DNA from: Deltaproteobacteria bacterium GWA2_38_16
GTDB taxonomy: Bacteria > Bdellovibrionota > JACOXK01 > 2-02-FULL-40-11
NCBI GenBank assembly: GCA_001797335.1
Contig: MGPE01000016.1
Location: 1 to 57,007, forward strand
Length of the DNA: 57,007 nt
Direction: 5' to 3'
Part shown: positions 43,454-46,712 of the stretch, one piece after another
Layout: each line of letters opens with the position of its first letter
How positions within the stretch are numbered: the stretch's first letter is position 1
Notes under the pieces: model-generated
The model's database searches: none
What the model saw: only the letters and a program-made list of their open reading frames with translations
What the model was told of the DNA's origin: nothing
Program-made: the position numbers and the translations under genes

Positions 43454-44989
43454 TCAATCCACAATTGCAATAACTTTCCATTGCCCATCGTAAAGCTTTA
43501 AGTGAATTTTAATAGAGCTCTTGGGAAAAGAAATCACAGCTCTCGTCGGCGAGATAAGTGAAAAATGCCCAAGGTTCATCAGCTCATCAACGCTCATCCC
43601 ACTGGGGATCTTATTTTGAAATAATATCCTTATTTTTTCTACTACCACTGTCCTTCGAATATTTTGCTCTTCTTCTTCTTGAAAAGACGCTTCATAAGCT
43701 GCACGTTTTTTTCTTTTAACCTCTTCTCTATTTGTCTCTTTTAAGTGATTGAGCATGGCTATTTTTTCTTCTAGTTCTGTTTTGTCTTCTGGTTTTACGT
43801 GGTTTAATTCTTCTAAAAGAATTTCTAATTCCTTGTCTACAGAATTAAAATGCTCATCAATCATTTGTTCCATTTCTTTAATTTTTTGTTCCACTGTTTT
43901 TGCTTCTTCAAAAGATTGAGGAAAATCTCCTTGAATAGAAATAAAAAGATCCCGCATTGCGATATAACGATCAACCATCGAAGCATCTAGTTTTTGTTCT
44001 TGAAGTTTCAAAAACAAATCTGCTGCATAGGTTTTAACTCCTTTTTCAAGTTCATTTCTTTCAGCCTCCGACAATTGTTCAAGTTTTTCTTTTTCTGGAT
44101 CCACCCTCAATCTATTCACTTCCACTACATCTTGAATAACCCCATTCACCCCCCCTTTTGAGAAAGCCAGTGGGAAAAGAGAAGGATCTAATGAAACAAT
44201 ATAAGAAGAATTTTCATCCTCCCCTTCTACTTCGATTTGAAAGGTCTGAGAGTTGATTTCTTTTTTTTCTGCTAAGTCTCGAACCATGGGAGTAAGCGTC
44301 ATTGATTTTCGAGGGTGCACTTTTTTTACTTTAAATATTGGATATTCTTTAAAAGAAAAAATTTTGTGAATAACTTCGTCATTAGATAGGGATTTAATTT
44401 CTAACTCCACAGAATCTTCATTGATTTTTACGACTTGTTGAAGAACATCAAACTTTAGTTCATTTTCTGTTACACTATATTTTACAAAATCCCCTGCTTC
44501 GACACCCTTCCATAAAAATTCTTTATTGTATTCTAAAGCATAATTTAAAGAATCCTTAACATCCTCTTCGGATGTCAAAAAGATAACCTCTTTAAGATGA
44601 TTTAATTTCCCTAAATCATGGAGCGCTCCTTTAAAAAAACTTTCTTGGGCTTGAATATAGCCCATGAAGATTCCCCCCTCATCTGTAATAATGACAGAAG
44701 CTATTAAACTGTCATTCCCCGGCTCGACCGGGGAATCCACAAGAGTCAAGGAGTGAATATCTGTGGGTTTAATTTCTATAAAACTTTCTTCTCCTACTTT
44801 TTCTTCATTTTTAAAATAAAATAGTTTAAGAGAAAGAATAGAATCAGGAGCGACAGAAAAAGAAATTTCCTGATGTTCTTTTTGGAGAACCATTTGTCCT
44901 TCGAAATGATCTTCTTTCAAAGAGGCCGCCCAGGCAGGAGAAGACAGGAGTAAGAAAATAGTTAAAAATATGTTTTTTTGACCCCTCAT
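43454..44989 (-). CDS. exported coiled-coil protein of unknown function
   Basis: I do not recognise this 511-residue protein. It starts with a signal peptide (MRGQKNIFLTIFLLLSSPAWA) and so is probably periplasmic. Residues to about 275 look beta-rich. The part from about 290 to 455 is acidic and helical with heptad-like E/K/L spacing (EELNHVKPEDKTELEEKI and neighbours), suggesting a coiled coil. A beta-like tail ends IKIHLKLYDGQWKVIAIVD. In its N-terminal third (DSPVEPGNDS) the frame passes through a perfect REP-type palindrome. The promoter region contains the 149-bp inverted-repeat element. It is 31 bp upstream of the CX7CX2C radical SAM gene. Confidence 0.85.
   Translation of the reverse strand: MRGQKNIFLTIFLLLSSPAWAASLKEDHFEGQMVLQKEHQEISFSVAPDSILSLKLFYFKNEEKVGEESFIEIKPTDIHSLTLVDSPVEPGNDSLIASVIITDEGGIFMGYIQAQESFFKGALHDLGKLNHLKEVIFLTSEEDVKDSLNYALEYNKEFLWKGVEAGDFVKYSVTENELKFDVLQQVVKINEDSVELEIKSLSNDEVIHKIFSFKEYPIFKVKKVHPRKSMTLTPMVRDLAEKKEINSQTFQIEVEGEDENSSYIVSLDPSLFPLAFSKGGVNGVIQDVVEVNRLRVDPEKEKLEQLSEAERNELEKGVKTYAADLFLKLQEQKLDASMVDRYIAMRDLFISIQGDFPQSFEEAKTVEQKIKEMEQMIDEHFNSVDKELEILLEELNHVKPEDKTELEEKIAMLNHLKETNREEVKRKKRAAYEASFQEEEEQNIRRTVVVEKIRILFQNKIPSGMSVDELMNLGHFSLISPTRAVISFPKSSIKIHLKLYDGQWKVIAIVD
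44711..44739. repeat. REP-type palindrome inserted in frame within a gene
   Basis: TTCCCCGG (44715-44722) and CCGGGGAA (44728-44735) are perfect 8-bp arms around CTCGA, preceded by GTCA and followed by TCC. This is the look of a widespread proteobacterial repeat family (GTCATTCCC...GGGAATCC). It is read in frame by the coiled-coil protein gene as SPVEPGNDS. The element is much richer in G+C than its flanks. Confidence 0.65.
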
Positions 44990-45040
44990 ATGTGCAAAAA
45001 GTAAGCAATTTAGATACCATATTCTGATTGCTTAGTTAGA

Positions 45041-45189
45041 AAAGAGAGAGTTCTTACCCATTCTGAAAGACTCTCTCGGAAGGCGAGCGGGCACGGTTCT
45101 GAAGGAGAGCGAGCCTGAGAGTGAAGCGCAAATTTCTCGCTGGAGAAATTTGACGCGGGTCTTGAAGAATTGGTAAGAACTCGCTCTTT
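45041..45189. mobile_element. 149-bp MITE-like element with 24-bp terminal inverted repeats
   Basis: The outer arms 45041-45064 and 45166-45189 are inverted repeats matching at 22 of 24 positions (AAAGAG-GAGTTCTTACC-ATTCT). Inside is a perfect 10-bp hairpin, CAAATTTCTC (45129-45138) with GAGAAATTTG (45143-45152) around GCTG, and other partial inverted segments. It is richer in G+C than its surroundings and encodes no transposase. A non-autonomous transposon or a structured-RNA repeat both fit. No target-site duplication could be assigned. Confidence 0.65.
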
Positions 45190-45209
45190 CACTGACGAGT
45201 CAATTACTA

Positions 45210-45443: not shown

Positions 45444-46712
45444 ATGCAATCAAAATATCTTTTTCTTCTTGCCCTTATTAGTCTTCTCTCCGCTTTTGGA
45501 TGTGGAGGAGACGGTGGAAGCTACGGAGGAGGAGGCTATTACTCCTCTTCACAAAGCGAATCCCAAATTCCAGAAGGCGTTTATGCCCAGGGGGGAGTAA
45601 AACTCTGTAATGGAGATCTTTTTTTTGCAGGAGGCGTCAATACCTATGGTTCTCCCACTGCCAACGCCTATATTTATCGAGTAAACAGTAAAACCTTTGT
45701 AGATGTTGATTTTAGAAGTACCAAAAATGATCTTTTAGAACCCCGTGTTCGCCACACCATGACACTTATTACAAACCCAAGTAGCAATATATACGCTCCT
45801 GCCCCACCGTGTTCTGTACTCATTACCGGCGGGTCAACAAACTATGGTATCTCCCGTACCGCTGAAATATATAATCCCTCCACCGATCGATTATATCCTG
45901 TTCAAAATATGCATACGGCTCGGAAAAATCACACCGTCACAGAAATTTTAGACTCTTCTTCTCTTCTATATGGACAATTTTTAGTTGTCGGAGGAAGAGA
46001 TGATGCAGGAAATATTTTAGCCACAGCGGAAGTGTTTGATCCCAATCGAGGCGTATTTTCTGTAGTAAGTAACCGCCTTCGTTTCCCCAGAGAAAACCAC
46101 ACTGCCACCCCTCTTAAAAATGGACTTATTTTAATTGCAGGTGGAAATACCCCCGGAGGCGTTACCGATACCGGAGAACTCTTTGATCCTATGCTGCTCT
46201 CTTTTAGCCTTATCACTAACTCCACCCTGTCAGAACCAAGACAGCGATTCACTGCCACCTATCTTGATAATAAAACTTCTTATATTACCACTGATGACGC
46301 TGTTCTTCTAGCAGGTGGACGCGATTCCATGGATTTTTCACTCGATAGCGCTGACTTTTTTGATCCTTTTTACAATCGTTTTAAACGCGTCAATAGCTTT
46401 ATGCGAAAACCCAGATTTGATCATGCAGCTACAGCGCTTCCCAATAATTATATTTCTGATGTAGTAATTACCGGGGGATTCACCAATTTAAATACGCTCA
46501 ATTATGTTTTATCAAACCCAACCGATGAAGTAGAAATTTTTAATTATGTCTATACCGGTGGCCCTAGCGGATATTTTTCACCCACCACGCCTCTTTTAAG
46601 AGCACGAGCTCTTCACACCACTCATCACATTCGGTGGGGCACACTCTTAACCCTAGGTGGAGTGGATCACTTTGGCCACGCCAGAACTACGGCAGAAGAG
46701 TTTTACTATTAA
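45444..46712 (+). CDS. kelch-repeat lipoprotein
   Basis: The 422-residue protein opens with a lipoprotein-type signal (LFLLALISLLSAFGC, acylated Cys at 20) and a glycine/serine-rich linker. The rest is a run of kelch blades with the GG-x-AE(I/V)(Y/F)xP pattern: ITGGSTNYGISRTAEIYNP, VGGRDDAGNILATAEVFDPN, IAGGNTPGGVTDTGELFDP, LAGGRDSMDFSLDSADFFDP, ITGGFTN and LGGVDHFGHARTTAEEF, each preceded by an R-x-H-T/A strand. Six blades fit one closed propeller. It is probably at the outer membrane, binding a protein or glycan. AGGGAC close to the ATG may serve as ribosome site. It ends in a TTAA shared with the opposing gene's stop. Confidence 0.9.
   Translation: MQSKYLFLLALISLLSAFGCGGDGGSYGGGGYYSSSQSESQIPEGVYAQGGVKLCNGDLFFAGGVNTYGSPTANAYIYRVNSKTFVDVDFRSTKNDLLEPRVRHTMTLITNPSSNIYAPAPPCSVLITGGSTNYGISRTAEIYNPSTDRLYPVQNMHTARKNHTVTEILDSSSLLYGQFLVVGGRDDAGNILATAEVFDPNRGVFSVVSNRLRFPRENHTATPLKNGLILIAGGNTPGGVTDTGELFDPMLLSFSLITNSTLSEPRQRFTATYLDNKTSYITTDDAVLLAGGRDSMDFSLDSADFFDPFYNRFKRVNSFMRKPRFDHAATALPNNYISDVVITGGFTNLNTLNYVLSNPTDEVEIFNYVYTGGPSGYFSPTTPLLRARALHTTHHIRWGTLLTLGGVDHFGHARTTAEEFYY

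Follow-up and report, generated by a model that had tools for sequence, protein, structure and literature searches.

The Rickettsia palindromic elements (RPEs) and the Wolbachia palindromic elements are palindromic repeats of about 100-150 bp, which form several families and, as described in the accessible portions of three papers, occur both between genes and in frame in conserved protein genes (PMC2229807, PMC10969869, PMC4224334). The available text of the 2024 review among these three sources states that RPEs encode a conserved peptide. The MITEs, such as Correia/NEMIS, ERIC, RUP and YPAL, are non-autonomous repeats of small size that fold into long stem-loops; according to the available part of one review, several of them end in fixed repeats and are accompanied by target duplications (Table 1), and YPAL targets sites at or near dyad symmetry (PMC2229807).

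The element that we describe here resembles the RPEs (compared by description only) and the Wolbachia elements in that it is palindromic, about 105-146 bp long and found in frame within conserved genes. It differs from the RPEs, as portrayed in the available text, in that it is read in both orientations and in different frames, without a conserved encoded peptide, and in its private stems, core inversion and apparent core exchange, features that this text does not mention for RPEs. Similarly to MITEs, it is a small dispersed stem-loop repeat without a transposase gene of its own, but its arms are often private and no obvious duplication accompanies it at three empty sites. On these partial descriptions, the RPEs and the Wolbachia elements appear to be its closest known counterparts by behaviour, and the MITEs by anatomy.

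Two other systems are worth comparing. In the REP/RAYT systems, palindromic repeats form hairpins whose mobility is attributed to Y1 (HUH) transposases; the present unit is much larger, and several genomes rich in it have no Y1 gene. Integron attC sites vary in stem sequence from one site to another but preserve their fold, and one of the two strands is used in folded form as the substrate. The present element likewise often has stems that differ by site with the fold kept, and apparently one favoured strand, but it combines a conserved apex with a variable stem, the reverse of attC, and its copies are dispersed. Our literature search, which left most subscription journals outside its scope, returned nothing naming this element and no earlier description of it.

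The element and the fold of its family

The window, i.e., the whole stretch of 57,007 nucleotides that was analysed (contig MGPE01000016.1 of Deltaproteobacteria bacterium GWA2_38_16), contains the element at positions 45041-45189, the plus strand being the core-sense strand. The left arm (45041-45071) and the right arm (45159-45189) form the 5' and 3' sides of the stem P1, with 27 complementary positions out of 31. The initial annotation of this DNA had proposed 24-bp arms with 22 matches and an inner perfect hairpin of 10 bp, and both are borne out: 45041-45064 pairs with 45166-45189 at 22 of 24 positions (27/31 when extended), and the P4 hairpin (45129-45152) comprises a 10-bp perfect stem (45129-45138/45143-45152), which covaries across the family, and the 4-nt loop GCTG. 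The conserved core (45064-45166) matches the covariance model R1 with 88.4 bits (E 1.8e-17), partly by construction, as this copy (L001) is one of the 36 model sequences. In the alignments A1 and A2, the branched hairpin displays two near-invariant motifs, GAGCGGGCACGG on its 5' side (45085-45096) and GAGCGAG on its 3' side (45107-45113), all these features being on the plus strand.

No other place across the 57-kb window has an inverted repeat of at least 24/31 with a 60-120 nt spacer, and both strands fold far better than 200 shuffles (z-scores −7.4 and −7.1); the inverted repeat is not due to chance. The annotated lack of a second copy in the window thus holds at comparable strength, further copies being located elsewhere in the genome. 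The annotated G+C enrichment is also real (0.497 in the element, compared with 0.298 in the 300 nt flanking it to either side and 0.353 for the window as a whole). The element lies between divergent ORFs, a minus-strand ORF of 511 aa starting at 44989 and a plus-strand ORF starting at 45444. A minus-strand ORF of 60 codons (45010-45192) is stop-free through the entire element. Five relatives have nothing collinear with this site outside the element, and so provide no empty counterpart of it.

Each copy has a core of about 100 nt, with a conserved three-way junction, atop a stem of about 25 bp. In the alignment of 36 copies, the junction connects the arm stem, the branched hairpin, which carries GAGCGGGCAYGG and GAGCGAG and ends in a variable tip, and the P4 hairpin. 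The paired cells amount to 93.4% (73.5% in shuffles) and the two-sided changes to 231 cells (70 in shuffles), 24 of the 33 pairs being changed on both sides, and a shift of the partner by 1-3 columns leaves at most 53.6% of the cells paired; these values are somewhat favourably biased, since the structure was drawn on the alignment on which it was scored. Hence, RNA folding and covariance, which the initial annotation had suggested as a check, speak for a structured family: both strands fold (z about −7) and the family strongly covaries. Rfam yielded no match in the window at the curated gathering threshold; a permissive search of the copy L016 gave an unrelated family at best (15.6 bits), and tRNA was the sole match on L108 and L057.

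This strong covariation and the near-invariant unpaired motifs are what would be expected from a dispersed small-RNA gene, each copy of which would have its own promoter and produce an RNA with a cellular role, the gene having spread like other RNA-gene repeats. The evidence bearing on this explanation is given below as it arises.

Distribution in uncultured bacteria

The genome-wide search for copies suggested in the initial annotation shows that the element is not a single-copy sequence. The covariance model detects eight copies in the 2.0-Mb genome harbouring the window, and a DNA search found six places besides that of the window. All 8 searched genomes of the window's class have copies (2 to 23 each), and 51 other genomes of its phylum gave no copy at E 0.001, under strict filters that weak copies may escape. 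A pattern derived from the core, in which 24 positions are specified and a single gap is variable, matched at least 110 stretches of genome contigs; the record titles of the matches listed correspond to Patescibacteria (many), Omnitrophota, WOR-3, Bipolaricaulota, Saganbacteria, "Deltaproteobacteria" and a few others, while L079 and L091 were dropped as presumed chance matches of the pattern. The model confirmed the element in 39 of 39 genomes picked from the pattern matches, a choice that makes this figure distinct from a prevalence, with 1 to 29 copies each; the highest number, 29, occurs in a 0.7-Mb genome. In an even sample of the phylum of one Patescibacteria member, at least 22 of 286 genomes matched (up to 13 candidates being scored per genome). 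Such a patchy spread, together with the 0/51 of the window's phylum, speaks against a small-RNA gene. All genomes analysed are draft assemblies.

Pairs of oppositely oriented cores, separated by about 55-240 nt, were noticed at L105, L107, L090, L119, L179 and L201, one of the two cores usually scoring lower. Carriage by phages or plasmids was considered and rejected: viral contigs contained no exact pattern match, and 50,697 phage and 72,556 plasmid records showed no match at the sensitivity used.

Copies inside and near protein genes

Sixty-one of the 195 distinct copies lie wholly inside an ORF of at least 100 codons (35 antisense and 26 sense), according to a simple ORF rule; many of the short ORFs are possibly not real genes. 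All ten element-bearing proteins that were scanned have Pfam domains. The clear in-frame hosts are PurL, an anthranilate/aminodeoxychorismate synthase, a penicillin-binding protein, a protein kinase, LpxB-LpxK (two proteins), a class-V aminotransferase (cysteine desulfurase, iscS), CtaA, MnmA and ParB, and the solved homologues of four host proteins are without insert. The in-frame cores are read in sense and antisense and in differing frames. At the PurL site, G004 and G001 have open, partly eroded remnants, and the core orientation is reversed between genomes. A single ORF contains both LpxB and LpxK, joined at the element, in L192, L023 and L184 (G005, G004 and G002, respectively), with differing orientations or frames. 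Other palindromic or G+C-rich inserts were seen in frame at similar gene positions, L145 in PurL of G002 and L160 in the chorismate enzyme of G003.

Residence in conserved genes in both orientations, and the eroded copies at the PurL site, argue against a small-RNA gene. Many other copies are situated between genes, close to where these start or end, and several directly follow a stop codon. These locations would suit a cis-acting mRNA structure, i.e., a riboregulator or a stability or processing hairpin controlling the host gene, but the orientation of the cores relative to host or neighbouring genes is mixed (72 antisense and 46 sense), and we show below two further observations that make such a role very unlikely.

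Empty sites, shared arms and private arms

For three copies (L189, L022 and L183), relatives show a clean empty site, which holds neither arm. The initial annotation had called for copies flanked by target-site duplications; none is obvious at these three sites. As the relatives are about 16-34% diverged, they may have lost short pieces of native sequence. The empty site of L028 is less clean (30-41 nt are left over) and those of L025, L018 and L027 are not clean, and none of the four was counted as evidence.

The origin of the arms was considered in the light of these sites. An insertion could copy about 20-25 nt of its target inverted, one arm being native and the other its mirror. The chorismate enzyme gives a hint of this, as its left arm can be aligned to native residues in a relative that has no insert, but the three empty sites hold neither arm, and we rejected this source as highly improbable. 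Copying of arms from elsewhere in the host was also rejected: 14-mers of left arms, counted in parts of G088 and G064, do not recur outside the element's own arms or orthologous or duplicated context.

Outside the model, arm pairing stays at about 0.8-0.9 over 16 nt, versus about 0.4-0.5 in re-paired controls, and is near background by about 22 nt, placing the arm ends about 17-22 nt past the model boundary (152 of 171 matches used, contig-end, redundant and weak-arm copies being left out). In G006 and in the Yes46-11, Bipolaricaulota and PCWA genomes, the arms are common to the copies and conserved nearly like the cores, and identity falls outside them, so that the moving unit comprises both the core and the arms. 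In G001, G004, G005 and the Saganbacteria genome, the mean core identity is 0.80-0.89 and the mean arm identity only 0.42-0.50, close to that of unrelated flanks (0.3-0.4), and each arm is 75-100% complementary to its own partner.

These arms bear on whether the element is a classical MITE, with fixed terminal inverted repeats, a target-site duplication and a transposase supplied by another locus of the genome. Its small size, its inverted repeats, its dispersed copies devoid of a transposase gene and the common arms of the first four genomes agree with this possibility, but the near-background arms of copies with similar cores and the three empty sites without obvious duplication do not.

Orthologous sites and possible core exchange

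Copies were compared at three orthologous sites, namely LpxB-LpxK, the chorismate enzyme and the start of a lipoprotein (seven pairs), where the flanks are 73-89% identical. Across the seven pairs, the arms are 62-83% identical, with pairing kept at 19-24 of 24 positions, and the cores are 88-95% identical. At each of the three sites, the core orientation is opposite in some pairs, the second observation against a cis-acting structure besides the mismatches described below. For 8 of 10 cores from shared sites, the best core match is at another site (the variable hairpin being masked, except for three of the 23 cores, compared whole). Cores could therefore be exchanged between sites, as read from short, constrained sequences in which part of the similarity may be due to convergence.

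The two Patescibacteria genomes G088 and G064, about 91-99% identical in matched flanks, have the same element at some sites and a different occupant at six hand-examined sites (A, B, C, E, G and H), these differences including a type-B relative that is nested within a type-A tip. The filled/empty pairs of site E and of a 163-nt insert are not clean, and were not used as evidence. This insert (L272:12311-12473) is a hairpin with CCCGCC/GGGCGGG arms, and the sister genome is without it. Within type-A elements, type-B relatives are nested in the variable tip of the hairpin at L240:1779-1886, L240:5343-5601 and L263:984-1090.

Strand asymmetry of the mismatches

In the first 14 outer arm pairs of 121 copies (with the kinds of exclusion given above for arm counts), the mismatches are G.T in 103 cases and A.C in 26, and the copies with more G.T outnumber those with more A.C (59 and 12 of 121); the copies are mutually related, which makes nominal p-values too small, but the direction is consistent. 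The core stems show the same trend (77 G.T versus 45 A.C, one fixed wobble pair being omitted). Similar values were found for copies antisense to the host or neighbouring gene (54 G.T versus 18 A.C) and for sense copies (51 versus 14). As the G.T excess also occurs in antisense copies, the core-sense strand appears to be selected to fold whichever way the gene runs.

Three explanations are affected by these data. First, this independence from host gene orientation speaks against a function of the element within the transcript of its host gene, and thus against a cis-acting mRNA structure. Second, the perfect arms might be kept by replication template switching within the hairpin, a mutational correction, instead of by selection. 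Strand switching at palindromes is expected to keep arms paired and to invert cores, and the present arms do diverge yet stay paired, while cores invert between them; but correction alone predicts equal numbers of G.T and A.C, so that template switching is quite unlikely as the whole explanation, though it may act alongside selection. Third, selection of pairing on the core-sense strand, and cores more conserved than the flanking DNA, are in line with a small-RNA gene, but the differing arms leave no room for a common promoter. On balance, we regard a small-RNA gene as doubtful. The mixed orientation, along with arms that leave no shared promoter, also makes us prefer single-stranded DNA over RNA as the folding molecule, the wobble data being compatible with both.

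A proposed non-autonomous hairpin mobile element

The Y1_Tnp family was found in 25 of 37 element-bearing genomes searched and is absent from the other 12, including G001, G002, G005, G006 and G088; RVT_1 occurs in 9 of the 37 and is absent from 28, including the genome harbouring the window. We therefore rejected a Y1 transposase or a reverse transcriptase as the sole mobiliser, each being missing from many element-bearing genomes. The absence of Y1_Tnp from the five genomes named also weighs against a classical MITE, which we consider rather improbable (the families searched being Y1_Tnp and RVT_1).

From all these lines of evidence, we propose, with a probability of roughly 0.6, that the element is a non-autonomous hairpin mobile element of the RPE/MITE type, with new behaviour. 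The alternative put forward in the initial annotation, a MITE or a structured-RNA repeat, stands in part: the element is a dispersed, mobile and covarying structured repeat, but not a textbook MITE, given its private arms, the lack of obvious duplication and the search of the above families, which found no partner transposase.

We propose the following mechanism. The core-sense strand, singled out by the strand-specific mismatches observed, would fold into the hairpin, most likely as single-stranded DNA exposed in replication or repair. An enzyme acting in trans would recognise the folded hairpin strand. The core and the arms, the unit present at filled sites and missing from empty ones, would enter the target together, without target duplication. 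After insertion, the arms would drift through compensating changes. The cores, which occur in opposite orientations and resemble cores of other sites, would invert or swap between copies, leaving cores alike and stems private. Finally, the insertions that reside in frame within genes would persist where the reading frame stays open.

An unrelated core of 27 nt (GGCCCCTCCGCCC.GTGT.GATCCTCC) was found at 12 places (L384-L395) in five of the 8 genomes of the class (G000, G001, G003, G004 and G005). Ten of the 12 stand on long, mutually different stems (e.g., 32/32, 26/26 and 24/24 bp). As this core likewise sits on private stems, unrelated cores share one layout, a conserved tip carried by a private stem. 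A tentative extension of our proposal, which we put forward as a possibility on the unlikely side, is a new mode of mobility in which unrelated apex modules, at least the core of the window's element, the type-B relative and the 27-nt core, would sit on private near-perfect stems, invert freely and be exchanged between resident stems; a shared machinery would recognise the folded single strand, and the mobile unit would effectively be the hairpin tip.

Significance

This work adds a widespread repeat family, unnamed in the literature searched, to uncultured bacteria, and shows that protein-coding palindromes occur well outside Rickettsiales. The insertions in conserved enzymes add protein loops and can confuse the annotation of such genomes. 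The family poses a testable puzzle, namely by what route one conserved hairpin tip has come to be borne by perfect stems that change from site to site, and what enzyme mobilises it.
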